A stretch of 64,000 bases of DNA from Segatella paludivivens DSM 17968 = JCM 13650 (GTDB lineage: Bacteria > Bacteroidota > Bacteroidia > Bacteroidales > Bacteroidaceae), in contig NZ_KB890686.1 of NCBI RefSeq assembly GCF_000373185.1, positions 35,917 to 99,916 on the forward strand. Reading direction: 5' to 3'. Made by a program: the position numbers and the translations under genes. This document shows positions 29,734-41,856 of this stretch, in pieces (positions within the stretch are counted from its first letter, which is position 1; the number at the start of each line of letters is the position of its first letter). The notes under the pieces were generated by a model. It saw only the letters and a program-made list of their open reading frames with translations, was not told the origin of the DNA and searched no databases.

Positions 29734-32700
29734 TTAGAACGTTACATTTACACCAATAGTCCAAGTACGAGCCTGCGGATAAATACCACGGTCTATACCA
29801 AGAGAAGTTCCACCTGAAGATATTTCAGGATCAAAACCCCAATATTTTGTCCATGTAACAAGATTCTCTGCCATTACGTAGAAACGAATACGATCAATAA
29901 AGAATTTCTTGGTTATCATACTTGGTATTGTATAACCCAAAGATATGTTCTTAATACGGAAATAAGATCCATCATGAACATAAAGGTCAGACACAACCCA
30001 GTTGTTTGTATCGCCAAGAACCAAACGAGGATACTTATTTGAAGTACCTTCACCCGTCCAACGCTGTAACATCCATGAAGGATAGTTACCAGAGTAGATA
30101 TCAGAACGATATGTAGCATCAAATACGTCGGCACCACTTACACCTTGAACAAATATATTAAAATCAAAATTCTTCCAAGATGCATCAAACTTCAAGCCGA
30201 ATGTCCAATCAGGGGTACCATTACCGATGTTTGTACGGTCATCAGATGTTATCTGACCATCACCATTTACATCAACGAAACGCACATCACCAGGAACAGC
30301 CTTTGGCTGAATCATTTGCCCCTTTGAATTTGTATAAGCCTTTACATCTGCCATATTCTGGAATATTCCAGCTGTCTTATAACCAAAGAAATAAGGGAAA
30401 GGTAGACCGTTAGATCCACGTGTTCCACCACCAGAAATACCTTGGAAACTATCAAGGTCTATATAACCTGTGCTATTACCAAGATTTGTCAATTCATTAT
30501 GAAGATAAGTTGCGTTACCTTTGATTCCAAATTGTGCATCTGCAACATGCCATCTGTAACCAAGTTCAAATTCAATACCCTTGTTTGTCATATCACCGAC
30601 ATTAGCAAGAGGAGCTGTTTCACCGACATAACTTGGTATTGGACGAGAAATGATCATTCCATTTGTTTTCTTTACATAATAGTCTGCAGAGAAAGTAAGT
30701 GCATTATCAAGGAATCCTAAGTCAATACCAATATCAGTCTGTTCGCTTTCCTCCCATTTCAAATCTGGGTTAGGAAGTCTTGTTGCCTTTGAACCATTTG
30801 TTTTCTGTGCAACCTGACCGAAGAGGTAGTTATTACCCATTGCGGTAAGTGATGTGTAACCAAAATCAGGAATGTTATCATTACCATTCTTACCCCAACT
30901 GAAACGAACCTTAAGATTTGACAACCAATCTTTAGTTACTTTCATGAAATCTTCATTCATGATATTCCATCCAACAGAGAAAGAAGGGAAGGTACCATAT
31001 TTGTGATTAGAACCAAAACGACTTGAACCATCACGACGAATAGTTGCCTGAGCCATATATTTCTCGTCATAGTTGTAACTCAAACGACCAAATAATGAAG
31101 AAATTCTGTGCTCTGTATTAAAACCACCATAAACACCATACTGAACAGTTCCACCAGTAATATTACCAGCATCATCCTTTGTGAGAACCAATGATCCAGT
31201 AGCGTAATCAATAGAAGGTTTGTCTACATTTACCAAATTCCAACGATTACCACCAATATAATCACCTTTATACTTCAAAGCTGACTGACCAAGAACTACA
31301 CCAAAGGTATGCTTACCTATAGTTTTATCCCATGTCAAGGTATTTTCTACCTGCCATGTTGTGCTCTTGTTAGATGAAGCATTCGCACTTGTATGAGTTG
31401 CATTGTTGTTTCCTGAAAGATAATACAATGATGTAGTGGCACCATTACTTCCCCAGAAAGCTAAATCCGCACTATATGTGAAATGATATTTTATATTATC
31501 CCATATACCTAAGTCAACAGAGAACTTTGGAACAAATTTATGGCTCCAATTACGAGTTGGATTTACCTGCATCATAGCCAAAGGGTTATTCATTTCCTGA
31601 TAAGTTCCGAAATAACCAACAACTGTATAAGGATTTCCTTCAGGATCTCTTGCCAAATCATATGCTGAATATTTGTCAATCATTGATGTAGCAACAGAAC
31701 CAAGAGCAACTGGCGACATAAGTGGTGACATATACAATGCAGAACCAAGTACTGACCCAAATTCAGAGTTAGTTGATATACCAGTACTATGTGTACGCAT
31801 GTATGACATATTCACATTAAGATTCAATGTATTAAGATAGTCACGCTGCTTTGTAGCGTCAATAAGTTTATACTGTGTATTACTACGCAATGTAAGACGG
31901 TCATAATTTGACTGTCCGTAATTTCCACCAATAATACCATCCTGTGAATAATAACCAGCTGACAAATAATAGTTGACAGCATCAGAAGCTCCACTAATTG
32001 AAACGTCATGATTTACAACTGGGGCATTATCATTAAATACAAGGTTTTGCCAATCAGTTCCATTACCAGTAATGGCATTACCGTTTGTATCAGTCAACTT
32101 ATAAGGATCTGCATATGGAGCAGCTTGTCCAGCATTGGTATACTTTTCATTCTGCAATATAGCATAATCTGTAGCATTAACTACGTCACGATGTTTCCAA
32201 GCACTTTGCCAACCATAAGAGAAATTATAGTTAATCTGTGCTTTGCCTACTTTTCCTTTCTTTGTTGTTACCAATACAACACCATTGGCAGCACGGGCAC
32301 CATAGATAGCACCAGATGCAGCATCTTTTAATACTTCGATACTCTCAATATCATTAGGATTAACGAAATCAAGACCACCTTCAATAGGCATACCATCTAC
32401 AATATAAAGAGGGTCGGAATTATTGATAGTACCAGTGCCACGAATACGGATACGTGCTGCTTCACCAGGCTGACCAGATGAAGATGTTACGTTAACACCT
32501 GCAGCAAGTCCCTTCAAAGCATTGTCCATACGGACTGGAGCTGTATTAGCAAGATCTGAAGCAGAGACCTTAGCAATAGCTGCTGTAACGACACTCTTTT
32601 TCTGAACGCCATAACCAACAACAACAACTTCTTCCAAAGATGCAGAACTTTCTTTTAATACAATGTGAAGATTGTCCGCTACTTTAACACGCTGTGTATC

Positions 32701-32931
32701 ATATCCAATATAAGATATGACTAGCGTCGAACCTGGTGCTACGGAAACCTTAAAATTTCCATCAATGTCAGTAACAGAACCCTGTGAGGTTCCCTGCTGA
32801 ACAACCGATGCACCAATGATTGGCTCACCCTGACCGTCAACGACTGTGCCAGAATAAAACTTATTCTGAGCAAATGACATCGTTGATACAAGTAAAGCCA
32901 CAAACAAGAGTAATAGTCTAGATTGTTTCAT
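29734..32931 (-). CDS. susC: SusC/RagA family TonB-dependent outer-membrane transporter
   Basis: A 1065-residue importer for oligosaccharides. In order: signal peptide to about residue 21, a carboxypeptidase-D-like regulatory domain (~22-100; GTVVDGQGEPIIGASVVQQG), the TonB box area (SLEEVVVVGYGVQKK), plug domain (IRIRGTGTINNSDPLYIVDGMP, EVLKDAASGAIYGARAANGV) and a 22-strand barrel ending in a terminal Phe (TIGVNVTF). It is first in the glucan operon. Energy would come from an ExbBD-TonB complex such as the one at 1.6-4.6 kb. Confidence 0.97.
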   Translation of the reverse strand: MKQSRLLLLFVALLVSTMSFAQNKFYSGTVVDGQGEPIIGASVVQQGTSQGSVTDIDGNFKVSVAPGSTLVISYIGYDTQRVKVADNLHIVLKESSASLEEVVVVGYGVQKKSVVTAAIAKVSASDLANTAPVRMDNALKGLAAGVNVTSSSGQPGEAARIRIRGTGTINNSDPLYIVDGMPIEGGLDFVNPNDIESIEVLKDAASGAIYGARAANGVVLVTTKKGKVGKAQINYNFSYGWQSAWKHRDVVNATDYAILQNEKYTNAGQAAPYADPYKLTDTNGNAITGNGTDWQNLVFNDNAPVVNHDVSISGASDAVNYYLSAGYYSQDGIIGGNYGQSNYDRLTLRSNTQYKLIDATKQRDYLNTLNLNVNMSYMRTHSTGISTNSEFGSVLGSALYMSPLMSPVALGSVATSMIDKYSAYDLARDPEGNPYTVVGYFGTYQEMNNPLAMMQVNPTRNWSHKFVPKFSVDLGIWDNIKYHFTYSADLAFWGSNGATTSLYYLSGNNNATHTSANASSNKSTTWQVENTLTWDKTIGKHTFGVVLGQSALKYKGDYIGGNRWNLVNVDKPSIDYATGSLVLTKDDAGNITGGTVQYGVYGGFNTEHRISSLFGRLSYNYDEKYMAQATIRRDGSSRFGSNHKYGTFPSFSVGWNIMNEDFMKVTKDWLSNLKVRFSWGKNGNDNIPDFGYTSLTAMGNNYLFGQVAQKTNGSKATRLPNPDLKWEESEQTDIGIDLGFLDNALTFSADYYVKKTNGMIISRPIPSYVGETAPLANVGDMTNKGIEFELGYRWHVADAQFGIKGNATYLHNELTNLGNSTGYIDLDSFQGISGGGTRGSNGLPFPYFFGYKTAGIFQNMADVKAYTNSKGQMIQPKAVPGDVRFVDVNGDGQITSDDRTNIGNGTPDWTFGLKFDASWKNFDFNIFVQGVSGADVFDATYRSDIYSGNYPSWMLQRWTGEGTSNKYPRLVLGDTNNWVVSDLYVHDGSYFRIKNISLGYTIPSMITKKFFIDRIRFYVMAENLVTWTKYWGFDPEISSGGTSLGIDRGIYPQARTWTIGVNVTF

Positions 32932-36774: not shown

Positions 36775-38268
36775 TTATTCCGCGAAGTCAACATTTCCAC
36801 CATCTGCATACATTCCAATGACAACTCCTGTGAATCCTCCAGTAACCTCTGAACTCAGAAGGCTACAATTTAATTCTCCTAGTGACTTATATGATGTTCC
36901 ATCATCACTGTATTCAAACTTATACATTTTATCATTATATGAAATTCGAAGATTCATCCATTCAGACCATATCTTATCTGATTTTACTATATAATCAATA
37001 TTTTTAAGTTTGCAACGAAGAGATACATGACCATCTTTGACAAACAAATCATAATGTCCGTCATTTATCTGATACACAGACAAGCCGCCTTCGGCATTAC
37101 CTTTTGGATGAACACGAAACTCAACACTTCCACAAACCTGTTCCTGTCGTTTACCAACAAACGTAGGCTGATTATTTTCAGACAAGCTACCATGTCCTTT
37201 AAACACAAGCTTATTACCATTGAAAGCATAGTTCCCAGAAATGGGATTCTGTATATGTATATACTCAGGTCCTAAATCTGAACGATTAAAATCAAAAGGC
37301 AGAGCATGGGGCATCTTATGCTCTTTTAGAGTTACAGCATTCATCAATGTATCTATAGGATTCCCACCATTTATTACTGGCCATTCACCTGTTTTCCATT
37401 CTACAGGTGCAAGGCAAGTCTCGCGTCCAAGATGATGATAACTTCCTCCAAAATTACGGTAAGCTAGGAATACAAGCCACCAGCGACCATCCATTGACTG
37501 AACGAAATCACCATGTCCTGTACCTTGAATCTGCATGTTCTGCCCTTTTCTACTACAATTTGTCAATATAGGATTAGCAGGATTGCTCTCATAAGGTCCA
37601 TAGATGTCACGACTACGAGCTATTGTAAGATGATGAGCCAATTCCGTTCCACCCTCAGAAATCAAAAGATAGTAATAACCGTCTTTCTTGTATATATGGG
37701 GACCTTCAGGATATCTTCCACCATCACCCTGCCAAAGCATACGGCTTTTGGACAATTGCTTACCAGTTTTGGCATCTATTTCACTAAGCCATACTGCATC
37801 ACCAGGATTTGAGCACATATAAACCTTGCCATTTTCAAAATACAATGAAGGGTCAATACCCTGTTGAGACAACCAAACAGGTTCACTCCAAGGTCCGGCA
37901 GGATTAGTAGCTGTAACAAGAAAGTTTCCACCATTACCGACATTAGTCGTTATCATATAATATGTTCCATTATTATATCTTATCGTTGGCGCATAAATTC
38001 CTAACCACGACGAAGCTCCTTTCAATGGAAGCTGCGAATCACGTGTCAACACATTTCCAATCTGTTCCCAATTTATCAAGTCATTACTATGAAAAACTGG
38101 AACACCTGGAAAATACTGAAAAGACGAATTAACCAAATAAAAATCATCTCCCACCCTACACACACTTGGATCAGGATGATAACCGGGGATAATCGGATTA
38201 CGATAACCTTGTGAGAAACTGCTCTCTGAAATAATAATAAAAAAGAACAGACTTAGTATTTTCTTCAT
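36775..38268 (-). CDS. Exported GH43 family glycosidase
   Basis: A 497-residue protein with signal peptide (residues 1-20). The five-bladed GH43 domain has YRNPIIPGYHPDPSVCRVGD (base Asp near 33), GIDPSLYFENGKVYM (Asp, pKa tuning) and RYPEGPHIYKKDGYYYL (acid Glu). A C-terminal beta-sandwich (about 330-497; GSVEFRVHPKGNAEGGLSVYQ, GFTGVVIGMYADGGN) is of the kind found in beta-xylosidase/arabinofuranosidase subfamilies. It probably trims xylosides or arabinosides in the periplasm; forms an operon with the FucP-type transporter. Confidence 0.93.
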   Translation of the reverse strand: MKKILSLFFFIIISESSFSQGYRNPIIPGYHPDPSVCRVGDDFYLVNSSFQYFPGVPVFHSNDLINWEQIGNVLTRDSQLPLKGASSWLGIYAPTIRYNNGTYYMITTNVGNGGNFLVTATNPAGPWSEPVWLSQQGIDPSLYFENGKVYMCSNPGDAVWLSEIDAKTGKQLSKSRMLWQGDGGRYPEGPHIYKKDGYYYLLISEGGTELAHHLTIARSRDIYGPYESNPANPILTNCSRKGQNMQIQGTGHGDFVQSMDGRWWLVFLAYRNFGGSYHHLGRETCLAPVEWKTGEWPVINGGNPIDTLMNAVTLKEHKMPHALPFDFNRSDLGPEYIHIQNPISGNYAFNGNKLVFKGHGSLSENNQPTFVGKRQEQVCGSVEFRVHPKGNAEGGLSVYQINDGHYDLFVKDGHVSLRCKLKNIDYIVKSDKIWSEWMNLRISYNDKMYKFEYSDDGTSYKSLGELNCSLLSSEVTGGFTGVVIGMYADGGNVDFAE

Positions 38269-38342
38269 TGCGTTATTTAAATTTCAACATACAGATAAGT
38301 ACGAGATACAACTAGATATGTCAAGTAAATCTATATTTCATG

Positions 38343-38350
38343 CAAAGATA
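38343..38350 (-). promoter_or_regulatory. -7 box for the GH43-transporter operon
   Basis: Minus-strand TATCTTTG; leader about 70 nt to 38268. Confidence 0.7.
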
Positions 38351-38467
38351 AAACAAGATGCGGGAAAAACAAAATATAAAATAAAGTTTTCTCTGTTTTA
38401 TCCCAATAACATTACCACAAATCACGAAATACACATTATTGCCACATAAAAATAGTCTTTAGGGCAT

Positions 38468-38531
38468 AAAAAAAGGAGTACCGCTGTACTCCGACCTTGT
38501 TAACCTTAAATCTAATACTATGAAAAACATG
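38468..38531 (-). ncRNA. Small RNA unit, copy A
   Basis: A complete mini-gene: -7 box TATATTTG (38542-38535), about 64 nt, then terminator GGAGTAC/GTACTCC with seven T. The body is nearly the same as copy B, 181 bp away. An ATG (38530) at the extreme 5' end opens a frame MFFIVLDLRLT..., but its stop codon (38459) lies beyond the terminator, so a complete peptide is unlikely. The layout, a Bacteroidetes promoter directly followed by a short RNA and terminator, matches the Bacteroidales-1 RNA motif as I recall it; not verified. Confidence 0.75.
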
Positions 38532-38647
38532 GTGCAAATATATTCAGATTTACATTAAAATCCAAACATCGCATATTATATAGTGTTATTTTTACAATTT
38601 ATTAAAACTTTTATTGGTGTTTTTAAGACAATTAAAGCATAAGGCAT

Positions 38648-38712
38648 AAAAAAAGGGGCTCCGCTGAGTCCCAACCTTTGTTAACCTTAAATCTAATACC
38701 ATGAAAAACATG
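38648..38712 (-). ncRNA. Small RNA unit, copy B
   Basis: Same plan as copy A: -7 box TACCTTTG (38723-38716), body with the shared segment from ATGTTTTTCAT to TTAAGGTTAACA, terminator GGGACTC/GAGCCCC (one A-C mismatch) and seven T. The terminator stems of A and B differ in sequence but keep pairing, while the body is almost unchanged, so both parts seem to be under selection. Confidence 0.75.
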
Positions 38713-38832
38713 GTGCAAAGGTATAACAGTTTTATTCAAAAGCCAAATAAACCTGAGCAGATTTTATTGACCATATTATTTTTTTGATTTACATCAACCA
38801 AGCGTTTCGATAGCCATTTTTCATTTAATTTA

Positions 38833-41800
38833 TTATGATTCGTTTATTACCACAGCACCTTCCTGCTTCATGCCATCCATCATTATCTTCAAAGGTTTAT
38901 CAAACTTTACGTGACGTACATAATCCGTTTCTTCTATTGCTGGCATAGCATCAAGAACATCCTTACGTATAAAGCCTCCGCATTCGGAATTGCAGTCTAT
39001 CGTAAAATAGCCTACACCAAAAGAGGTTAGATTTTGAAAAAAATGTGTTCCCTGACTAGGATCTACATGATAGTTTTTTAAGGCCAGTTCAACTATTATA
39101 CGTGCAGCAGATATATGCGGCCATTTCACTGGAACTCCAAGATAATGGTCACTTGATCCCCAACGTCCAGGTCCGATAAGCACATAGTTTTTAGCTTCAG
39201 CAAGGAACTTTCTATTTATTCTTTCGATATCATCTGCTACATAATAATTATTCATCGCCGAAAAATTATCATCGTATTTCACGTAGACAACATCAACAAC
39301 ATCATCACTTACGCCATGTCCTAATGAGTTATGTGAACGTAACAGGCAGCTATCATCAGGAATTTTCATAATATCGGTTTCTAATACTCCCTTTGTTTCC
39401 ACGATAGGACGAATCTGCAACAAATAAAACTCACCAGTTTTGTTTTCATTTATATTGCATGCGAATTCTATCTCAATAGGACGACGCATCGCACTGGAAC
39501 CATACTTCATAGATAACTGCAAGATCTCTGGCAAAGGAAAAACATCCTGTTGAAGTACACCGGCAAATGATATAATCTTGCGTCCTCCCTCATACAAACC
39601 GTCATTAATAATCTGATCGTAGGGATCAAAAGTAGAAACAATATAATTCAGAGATTTATCATGCTCTGCATCCTTTACTTTCAATTTTAGAATATTAAAT
39701 CCATCATCAACCTTGAAGTCACTTCCGACATCAGACATATCTAACGCATAGAATTGGGTCTGGGTTTCGCGTAAAGCAGTTTCAACTTCACTTGTCTGCA
39801 TCACTTGATCAGGATGATAAGGAGAGACCCGCAACGTCTGTCCACCATCGACAATATACTTTCCAAGTCCCAAAGCTAAAGAAGCAATACCATCTTCAGC
39901 AGTTTCATTCCCAACTGGATAATAGTTGATTGAACGCAATACACCACTAATATTAGGATAAAAATGATTTCCATATTGATGGCCGACGACCTCCTGCAAG
40001 ATAACTGACATTTTCTCTTGATCGATAACATTACTCGTTGCGGTCATATATGCTTTTGAATCACGATAGTACACAGAAGCATATACACTTTTTATTGCGG
40101 CTGCAAGCATCTGTAACATCAGGTACTTGTCTGCAGTATTTGGTATCATATAAGTATTGTATATACCGGCAAAAGGCTGATAATGACTATCTTCAAGCAA
40201 ACTTGATGATCTCACAGCAATAGGACTTTTGGTCGCATCGAAGAACGTAAAAAAATCTGCGATCAACGAATCAGGAAGTTGTGCTCTAAGAAAATGCTGT
40301 AATATCTCATCATCTGGTGCATCACTAAGTGCTATTTGATAAAGATGGTTTTGTTCCATAAACTGATCAAATATATCAGTACAAAGAACTACCGTTTTTG
40401 GTATCTGCACTGATGCACCTGAATATTGATTGAATTCAGAATGTGTCTTTATAACATTATCAAGGAAAGCTAAACCACGTCCTTTACCTCCTAGAGAACC
40501 TTCACCGATACGTGCAAAATGTGCATAACGGTCGTATTTCATTCTATCGAATACAGCAACAACTCCAATATTTTTCATGTGGCGATACTTCACTATGGCA
40601 TCAAAAATTATCTGTCTATGAGCATCTACATCCTGCAATTTATGCCAAGTGACATTTTTAAGAAACTGCGACACAGGGAATATAGCACGTGCACTAAGCC
40701 AACGGCTCATGTGATTACGACTTACATGATAAAGCATTGAAGCATTTGGTATCTTAAAAATATTATCTTGCAATTCCTTCAATGATCTTATCCTCATTAC
40801 TTCTTCGTGAGTAGTTGGATCGCGGAAGATGAAATCGCCAAATCCCATGTGCTCTTCCATTATTCGACGCAAGTCAAGACTCATTGTCTTGGAATTTTTG
40901 TCAACGAAACGAAAATACTCTGCTTCTGCCTTTTCACGGTATTTGCATTCTGAGCTTTCCATTATTAGTGCAACATACTCATCACGTTTACGAATAGCAC
41001 GCAACAATTTCAACCCAGCTTCAGGATCTTTATAAACAGCAGAGTCACGCAATGGAGATGGTTGCAACACATTTTCTTTAGGAGAAATCTCCCTCATCGG
41101 GAAACGTGCGTCACTGATTACGCCTATACAATTATCAGCAAACTTATTATATATATTCATCGCTTCCTCATAAGTACGTGCAAGCACAACTTTAGGACGT
41201 CCACGCATACGAAGCGTTGACTGATGTCTGTTAAGCGCCTCTGTGGCAAAACGCTTACTTTGAGCAAGTATGTAACTATATAAATTGGGTAATATCGAAG
41301 AGTAAAAACGAATACTATCCTCCACTAGCAATATCATCTGCACACCACTTTCCTTGGTGTCATGCTCTAGATTCATCTTATCTTCAAGAAGTTTTATTAT
41401 TGATAGAATAAGATTAGTATTTCCTAGCCAACAGAATACATAATCGAAGATACTTAAATCCTCGTTCTGCATTCTTTTAGTAATACCATGAGAAAAAGGT
41501 GTAAGTACAACGCATGGTATATCCGAAAACATACCTTTTATATCTCTTGCCACAGTGAAAGCATCATTATCTGCATTACCTGGCATACAAATCACCAAAT
41601 CTATATTAGTTGTATTAAGAACTTTAGCAGCCTCATCAGTCGTTGATACCTGAGTAAATGTTGGTGGATATCTAAGTCCTAGCTCCATATACTCATTATA
41701 TATTTTTTCTTCCACACGTCCGTCATCCTCCAACATGAATGCATCATAAGGATTGGCAACTATGAGTACGCTATATATGCGCCTCATCATAAGATTCGCG

Positions 41801-41856
41801 AACGTTACATCTTTCAGATAAAACTTATTAAATTCATGGGGTATTTTACTTTCCAT
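38833..41856 (-). CDS. Receiver-domain/PEP-synthase-like ATP-binding protein
   Basis: A 1007-residue cytoplasmic protein. Two receiver-like domains come first: ~24-160 (YSVLIVANPYDAF; acceptor position degenerate, DLVICMPG) and ~172-300 (ILLVEDS acid pair, VISDARFP with a likely acceptor Asp near 246, ALIMESS). From ~440 a PPDK/PEP-synthase N-terminal ATP-binding domain follows: GSLGGKGRGLAFLDN near 452, PIAVRSSSLLEDSHYQPFAG near 545, EIEFACNINENKTGEFYLLQIRP. A C-terminal region with LIGPGRWGSSDHYLGVPV and GTHFFQNL ends it. The phospho-histidine swivel motif and PEP barrel of true PEP synthases are missing. Similar long proteins occur in Bacteroidetes under the PEP/pyruvate-binding label; function unknown, maybe signal-controlled phosphotransfer. 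Confidence 0.85.
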   Translation of the reverse strand: MESKIPHEFNKFYLKDVTFANLMMRRIYSVLIVANPYDAFMLEDDGRVEEKIYNEYMELGLRYPPTFTQVSTTDEAAKVLNTTNIDLVICMPGNADNDAFTVARDIKGMFSDIPCVVLTPFSHGITKRMQNEDLSIFDYVFCWLGNTNLILSIIKLLEDKMNLEHDTKESGVQMILLVEDSIRFYSSILPNLYSYILAQSKRFATEALNRHQSTLRMRGRPKVVLARTYEEAMNIYNKFADNCIGVISDARFPMREISPKENVLQPSPLRDSAVYKDPEAGLKLLRAIRKRDEYVALIMESSECKYREKAEAEYFRFVDKNSKTMSLDLRRIMEEHMGFGDFIFRDPTTHEEVMRIRSLKELQDNIFKIPNASMLYHVSRNHMSRWLSARAIFPVSQFLKNVTWHKLQDVDAHRQIIFDAIVKYRHMKNIGVVAVFDRMKYDRYAHFARIGEGSLGGKGRGLAFLDNVIKTHSEFNQYSGASVQIPKTVVLCTDIFDQFMEQNHLYQIALSDAPDDEILQHFLRAQLPDSLIADFFTFFDATKSPIAVRSSSLLEDSHYQPFAGIYNTYMIPNTADKYLMLQMLAAAIKSVYASVYYRDSKAYMTATSNVIDQEKMSVILQEVVGHQYGNHFYPNISGVLRSINYYPVGNETAEDGIASLALGLGKYIVDGGQTLRVSPYHPDQVMQTSEVETALRETQTQFYALDMSDVGSDFKVDDGFNILKLKVKDAEHDKSLNYIVSTFDPYDQIINDGLYEGGRKIISFAGVLQQDVFPLPEILQLSMKYGSSAMRRPIEIEFACNINENKTGEFYLLQIRPIVETKGVLETDIMKIPDDSCLLRSHNSLGHGVSDDVVDVVYVKYDDNFSAMNNYYVADDIERINRKFLAEAKNYVLIGPGRWGSSDHYLGVPVKWPHISAARIIVELALKNYHVDPSQGTHFFQNLTSFGVGYFTIDCNSECGGFIRKDVLDAMPAIEETDYVRHVKFDKPLKIMMDGMKQEGAVVINES

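Follow-up and report, generated by a model that had tools for sequence, protein, structure and literature searches.

Tandem FopS-type small RNA genes between a PPDK_N gene and a glycan gene cluster in Segatella paludivivens

FopS is a family of paralogous small RNAs described in Bacteroides thetaiotaomicron by Ruttiger et al. 2025 (PMC11697453), and the family, its structure and its general function are already in print in the sections of that article available to us. According to these sections, the FopS seed pairs with the start regions of susC-like mRNAs, translation is blocked and RbpB antagonises the effect. For FopS-10, the R1' seed pairs with the start region of the susC gene BT_3983, translation is blocked in vitro and RbpB relieves the block, and compensatory mutations bring the pairing back. 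The evidence for this mechanism comprises EMSA, in-line probing, compensatory mutations, in vitro translation, deletions and a knock-down. The same sections report that FopS has a canonical sigma-ABfr promoter and that RbpB contacts the RNA in its 5' part, in a phylum, the Bacteroidota, without classical chaperones (PMC11697453). Our literature basis further included parts of PMC2864571 and PMC12119571. In the journal literature covered (few subscription titles, preprints apart), one other paper, as far as its accessible text goes, names FopS in passing, and for Bacteroidales-1 in connection with 6S RNA, or with sRNA and Bacteroides, only the 2010 discovery paper was found.

Two small RNA units and their family

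We analysed 64,000 nt of the genome of S. paludivivens DSM 17968 = JCM 13650 (the window), in which two promoter-to-terminator units lie on the minus strand with starts 181 nt apart. Both exceed the 56-bit cut-off of RF04319, the Rfam model of FopS, and match all its positions (1-71). Unit 1, the upstream copy (38645..38711), scores 71.2 bits (E 1.9e-8) and unit 2, the downstream copy (38465..38530), 70.9 bits (E 2.2e-8), E values that hold for the whole window and are far beyond chance. No other Rfam family came near its own cut-off in the region searched around the units. Each unit comprises a TAnnTTTG box, almost the same 31-nt 5' part, a hairpin and a T run. The -7 box is TACCTTTG in unit 1 (38716..38723, minus strand) and TATATTTG in unit 2 (38535..38542, minus strand), and a -33 TTTG stands upstream of each of them after a 20-nt spacer (38744..38747 and 38563..38566, respectively, minus strand). 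The sigma-ABfr consensus is TTTG, about 20 nt and TAnnTTTG; like FopS, both units have a promoter of this type, and their spacer is 20. A sigma-70 promoter scan was set aside for these units; the sigma-70 promoter model is unsuited to the phylum.

The conserved seed, at 38681..38709 in unit 1 and 38500..38528 in unit 2 (minus strand), is unpaired in the structure line of the family model and, in either unit, an exact copy of type I; the units share with FopS a single-stranded 5' seed and, after it, a terminator. The base before the start-codon complement of the seed is G in unit 1 (CAUGG) and A in unit 2 (CAUAG). The terminators read GGGACUC-AGCG-GAGCCCC in unit 1, with one A-C mismatch, and GGAGUAC-AGCG-GUACUCC in unit 2 (both minus strand). 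At the level of sequence, each of the two units comes with a Bacteroidota-type promoter and an intrinsic terminator of its own. Across 26 rows from relatives (25 distinct), hand-chosen for the Prevotella-type hairpin with Bacteroides-type stems excluded, 97.1% of the stem cells are paired, and 45 cells are changed on both sides compared with 13.3 in shuffles, none of the 500 shuffles being as high. Counted over the same 26 rows as stem pairs changed on both sides (4 versus 3.3 in shuffles) or as further pair types (10 versus 9.2), there is no excess. One stem pair is open in 5 of the 25 distinct rows, unit 1 included, and a consensus terminator scan of the minus strand lists unit 2 and not unit 1. 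Moreover, the whole-unit fold of unit 1 is no better than its shuffles (z +1.14), and that of unit 2 has z -2.0 against shuffles, with some weak pairs of its seed in the predicted fold.

Upstream of the pair lies a gene for a 1007-aa protein with a PPDK_N (PEP-synthase-like) domain (38833..41856, minus strand; Pfam PF01326, E 1.4e-42), which marks a conserved locus. Downstream, a GH43 glycosidase gene (36775..38268, minus strand; Pfam PF04616, E 4.5e-89) opens a glycan gene cluster that runs on the same strand as the units and further encodes an MFS transporter, an aldolase and a SIS protein. Unit 2 ends about 200 nt ahead of the GH43 start on that strand, an arrangement that would suit terminators or leader elements of the adjoining GH43 operon rather than trans-acting small RNAs. 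However, a full promoter and a conserved seed are found in each unit, the three remaining copies in this genome adjoin other genes, and the seed is kept across loci whose neighbours differ; we regard a mainly leader or terminator role as very improbable.

A sequence-only reading of this DNA had described twin small RNA genes 181 bp apart, each with its own -7 box and a strong terminator whose stem varies while pairing holds, next to a glycan operon and a PEP-synthase-like gene. Both units lie where it placed them, on the minus strand, which it had not given, and RF04319 matches bear out their duplication and their retention in relatives. The -7 boxes are there, and the promoters are more complete than it said because of the -33 TTTG; the neighbours are recovered by Pfam as the GH43 cluster and the PPDK_N nucleotide-binding domain. 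The terminator claim stands for the stem in relatives and is weaker for unit 1, with its mismatch. The identity that it suggested for the units, Bacteroidales-1, did not survive: the one point in its favour is the layout as that reading described it, RF01693 has no match at all in 38300-38860 up to E=10, and we give this assignment virtually no chance. The genome does hold a genuine Bacteroidales-1 RNA on another contig (C24:119300-119484, 125 bits), which differs from the units in family, in length (the RF01693 model has 179 positions) and in locus. The accompanying phrase, no known function, is inapplicable since the function of FopS is in print (PMC11697453, in the sections available). The GibS model (RF04182) was also tried and rejected. 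It gave weak matches of 35.1 and 33.5 bits, and the first seed part, R1, is common to GibS and FopS (PMC11697453, same sections), so that the units might be GibS or another small RNA with only R1 in common. These scores fall far short of the 115 bits set as threshold for GibS, however, the FopS scores are more than 35 bits higher, and GibS, unlike the units, has a second seed, together with a different promoter class (PMC11697453, same sections). We see next to no probability in a GibS-like identity, and refer to the units as FopS hereafter.

Copies in the genome and the tandem locus in relatives

FopS is multicopy in B. thetaiotaomicron, and the copy count that the sequence-only reading had proposed gives five copies in this 3.46-Mb genome, namely the window pair and one copy each on three other contigs (C35, C1 and C12). 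By their seeds, three are of type I, the common form, and two of type II, which has a 2-nt insertion. Type II seeds (GATTATTAAGGTTAA) go with a terminator stem of another kind and turned up in two viral contigs as well as several genomes of Prevotella; the loci concerned include L002 and L005 in the genome itself (C1 and C12), and L108, L112, L114 and L117.

RF04319 exceeds its cut-off in 39 of 60 relatives, in 83 of 393 genomes sampled from the order and in 6 of 392 genomes of the phylum, all six of which belong to the same order; these counts take in the genome itself, and in the order and phylum surveys only 12 candidates were scored per genome. The 83 genomes place FopS in many of the order's families other than the one to which Bacteroides belongs. 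Among 86 loci fetched as family matches, which are mostly best-scoring and two of which are the window pair itself, the type I seed is exact, at whatever position in the locus, in 74, the type II seed alone is present in 7 and neither is found in 5. Of 79 distinct exact-seed copies, 77 have the TAnnTTTG box at one fixed distance from the seed, which is also that of unit 1, and in the other two it is at most 2 nt off. A TTG stands 19-21 nt ahead of the box in 69 of 104 distinct contexts, compared with 5 of 104 at a control spacing of 11-13.

For the PPDK_N protein, the nearest relatives with a name come from a Prevotella MAG (93%) and from Segatella maculosa (82%), records of the genome itself having possibly been left out. 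In 12 of 80 named relatives, the PPDK_N gene is followed within 700 nt, on its own strand, by an exact FopS seed, in three as a pair (loci L006, L007, which is from S. maculosa, and L022) and in nine as a single copy, and 68 have none; this synteny count covers exact seeds only, so that altered copies are missed, and in three of the 80 loci the sequence beyond the gene runs to less than 700 nt. The spacing of the pairs is 182 nt in L006, 180 nt in L007 and 287 nt in L022. In a family-model scan that concerned the pairs themselves only, the relatives G016 and G024 have FopS pairs about 180 nt apart, and the G024 pair has the same scores as the pair in the window. In the window, in L006, in L007 and in G016, the start-codon complement is preceded by G in the upstream copy and by A in the downstream one; in L022 it is preceded by A in both. 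Because this G/A difference is kept in the first four, the sequences suggest an old duplication in which each copy has kept its own identity in close relatives, and not repeated recent duplication. The tandem layout probably raises dosage.

Pairing of the seed with start regions

In sequence, the unpaired 5' seed of the units is the antisense of start-codon regions such as AACCUUAAAUCUAAUAC-AUG-AAAAA, and its pairing with mRNA start regions would, by analogy with B. thetaiotaomicron, most likely block ribosome entry. The targets would be, in particular, mRNAs of susC-like outer-membrane transporters that head glycan-utilisation operons, and an RRM protein, RbpB-like, may counteract the units. 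This ribosome block is experimental in B. thetaiotaomicron (PMC11697453, in the sections available) and is carried over to the present genome by analogy. Altogether, we hold it probable that these copies function as FopS in full, that is, as paralogous small RNAs that block start regions, those of susC-like mRNAs foremost, with an RRM protein working against them.

The duplex energy of the seed with start regions (-45 to +25) was compared with that of shuffled seeds, a measure that ignores accessibility. Start regions were set mechanically at the first ATG, and the best-scoring SusC loci were used: 30 of 38 above the cut-off in the genome itself, 30 of 46 in G297, 15 each in G016, G432 and G795, and 14 in G396, where one of 15 loci was dropped, its start region not being callable. 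With the full seed, SusC starts pair better than expected in the congeners G016 (z -3.2) and G432 (z -4.9) and in three other genomes, G297 (z -7.0), G795 (z -5.8) and G396 (z -5.3); in none of the five did any of 100 shuffles come out as low. In S. paludivivens, the 30 susC genes gave a small excess (z -2.2, 4 of 100 shuffles as low), and 343 sampled ORFs gave none (z -0.6, 40 shuffles), a sample of about 12% of the genome plus the window that was not filtered for SusC and includes the window's own SusC gene. The 28 sampled genes of this genome that start with ATGAAAA, a control confined to it, reached z -2.4, level with its SusC set; part of the SusC signal is therefore the ATGAAAA start. 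When the leader alone was used, the excess was gone in the SusC sets of S. paludivivens (z -0.8, 18 of 100 shuffles) and of G016 (z -0.7, 27 of 100 shuffles), and it was kept in G432 (z -2.3), G297 (z -3.0), G795 (z -4.2) and G396 (z -2.1). A start-region test of the 15 of the 30 own SusC loci that lie on the plus strand found no enrichment and is superseded by the test on both strands. Sites complementary to the seed with at most 3 mismatches to its 21 specified bases do not occur in the genome outside the five small RNA genes.

The prediction of mRNA pairing, proposed in the sequence-only reading as a check, is thus favourable for SusC in five other genomes, but not in S. paludivivens beyond the level of ATGAAAA genes. 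Since the leader-only excess stays in G432, G297, G795 and G396, other genomes lend the SusC mechanism support; it is plausible in the genus, and for S. paludivivens we only infer it, because the excess is small and level with that of the ATGAAAA genes. Within the window, the best-pairing start region of the ORFs tested (-17.3 kcal/mol) belongs to a SusC-like gene (29734..32931, minus strand; SusC family match, locus L125), which we name as a candidate target only. Of the 343 sampled start regions, the best belongs to a 264-aa ORF on contig C18 (L269:6136-6930, minus strand; -19.6 kcal/mol) and is the only one at or below -18. Its leader reads UUAACCUUUUAG..UAUACUAUG, the protein starts with MLGAIIGDIVGSRFEF, and the product is, by eye, ADP-ribosylglycohydrolase-like.

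One might ask whether the main targets of these FopS RNAs lie elsewhere than in susC mRNAs, the seed being held by a different set of start regions or by binding to the RRM protein. Other families of the order have an identical seed although SusC complementarity here is at the level of ATGAAAA genes, the best sampled start region is not that of a susC gene, and the 5' part of FopS is where RbpB makes contact (PMC11697453, in the sections available). However, both congeners show the SusC excess with the full seed, and the sample of other targets amounts to about 12% of the genome and the window. We find this reading rather unlikely, if a serious one, and keep susC-like start regions as the foremost targets. 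A fixed seed alongside weak SusC pairing in the same genome raises the question of what holds the seed constant.

Phage contigs and comparison with known systems

The exact type I seed is also present in 24 IMG/VR contigs, some of which are near-copies of one another; 13 carry a host-like TAnnTTTG box and 11 lack it, and the hairpins after the seed in these 11 are, by eye, unlike the bacterial ones. The IMG/VR contigs with the seed and an unlike hairpin are L152, L156, L157, L162, L164-L168, L170, L171 and L175, a group in which the box is absent in all members but one; L175 is either a near-copy of L157 or counted among the 11 box-less contigs. L339, one of the two type II viral contigs, has no TAnnTTTG box. 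When proteins from five of the 11 box-less contigs were searched against PHROGs, four had a terminase or tape-measure match near the seed (E 9.7e-24 in L164 and 2e-12 in L165; 6.7e-4 in L156 and 1.4e-4 in L157, both weak), and the L162 protein had no match. By eye, the L156 ORF also occurs in L166, L168 and L170, and the L157 ORF in L167 and L175. Terminase or tail genes thus adjoin some of the exact seeds with unlike hairpins, so that one and the same seed seems to have been acquired in separate lineages of phages. Matches also come from three records labelled Bacteriophage sp. and from 22 plasmid-collection records. In the named, induced Bacteroides phage BX-TP2 (PQ571285.1:44818-44850), the 5' part is matched at 97% in an unannotated stretch near the end of the phage genome.

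Phage carriage itself is not new, since the FopS sequence is noted in one Caudovirales phage (PMC11697453, in the sections available). We speculate, and give it only a slim chance, that throughout the order the FopS seed serves as a portable antisense to a start-codon region, under a constraint broader than SusC control, and that what look like several phage lineages, with hairpins of their own and no host promoter box, possibly use it in infection to silence surface proteins of the SusC type or to titrate the RRM protein. This idea is based on a seed that is unchanged in this Prevotella although its SusC leaders match no better than shuffled seeds.

The main text of PMC11697453 as available to us contains neither Prevotella nor tandem nor any word that begins with synten, the species survey being in its supplements, and Prevotella copies may already be in the RF04319 member list. 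Our additions are modest: a tandem locus that is conserved in Prevotella, and phage contigs that carry exact seeds but lack the host promoter box. For the locus itself, the gain is a corrected identity and a concrete predicted function, the repression of sugar-import proteins known from B. thetaiotaomicron. Among other bacteria, OmrA and OmrB of Escherichia coli are neighbouring, Hfq-dependent paralogues that have the 5' seed in common, differ in their 3' parts and act on mRNAs of outer-membrane proteins. They are listed as a paralogous pair in PMC11697453 (same sections), and the window pair resembles them in layout, with no homology claimed, and differs from them in belonging to a phylum without classical chaperones.

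The closest described system is thus FopS of B. thetaiotaomicron, with which the window units share the full-length model match, the R1' seed, a single terminator hairpin, a Bacteroidota-type promoter and the multicopy state. FopS further features RbpB binding and antagonism, a 65-70 nt transcript and a bile response; on the side of S. paludivivens, one RRM_1 gene (a 110-aa ORF from the first ATG) is present. In contrast to B. thetaiotaomicron, this genome has two copies in tandem 181 nt apart, a Prevotella-type terminator stem, a 2-nt seed insertion in two of its five copies and weak SusC pairing. With five copies in the genome and not 14 as in B. thetaiotaomicron, the Prevotella tandem locus offers a place to study dosage and target choice.
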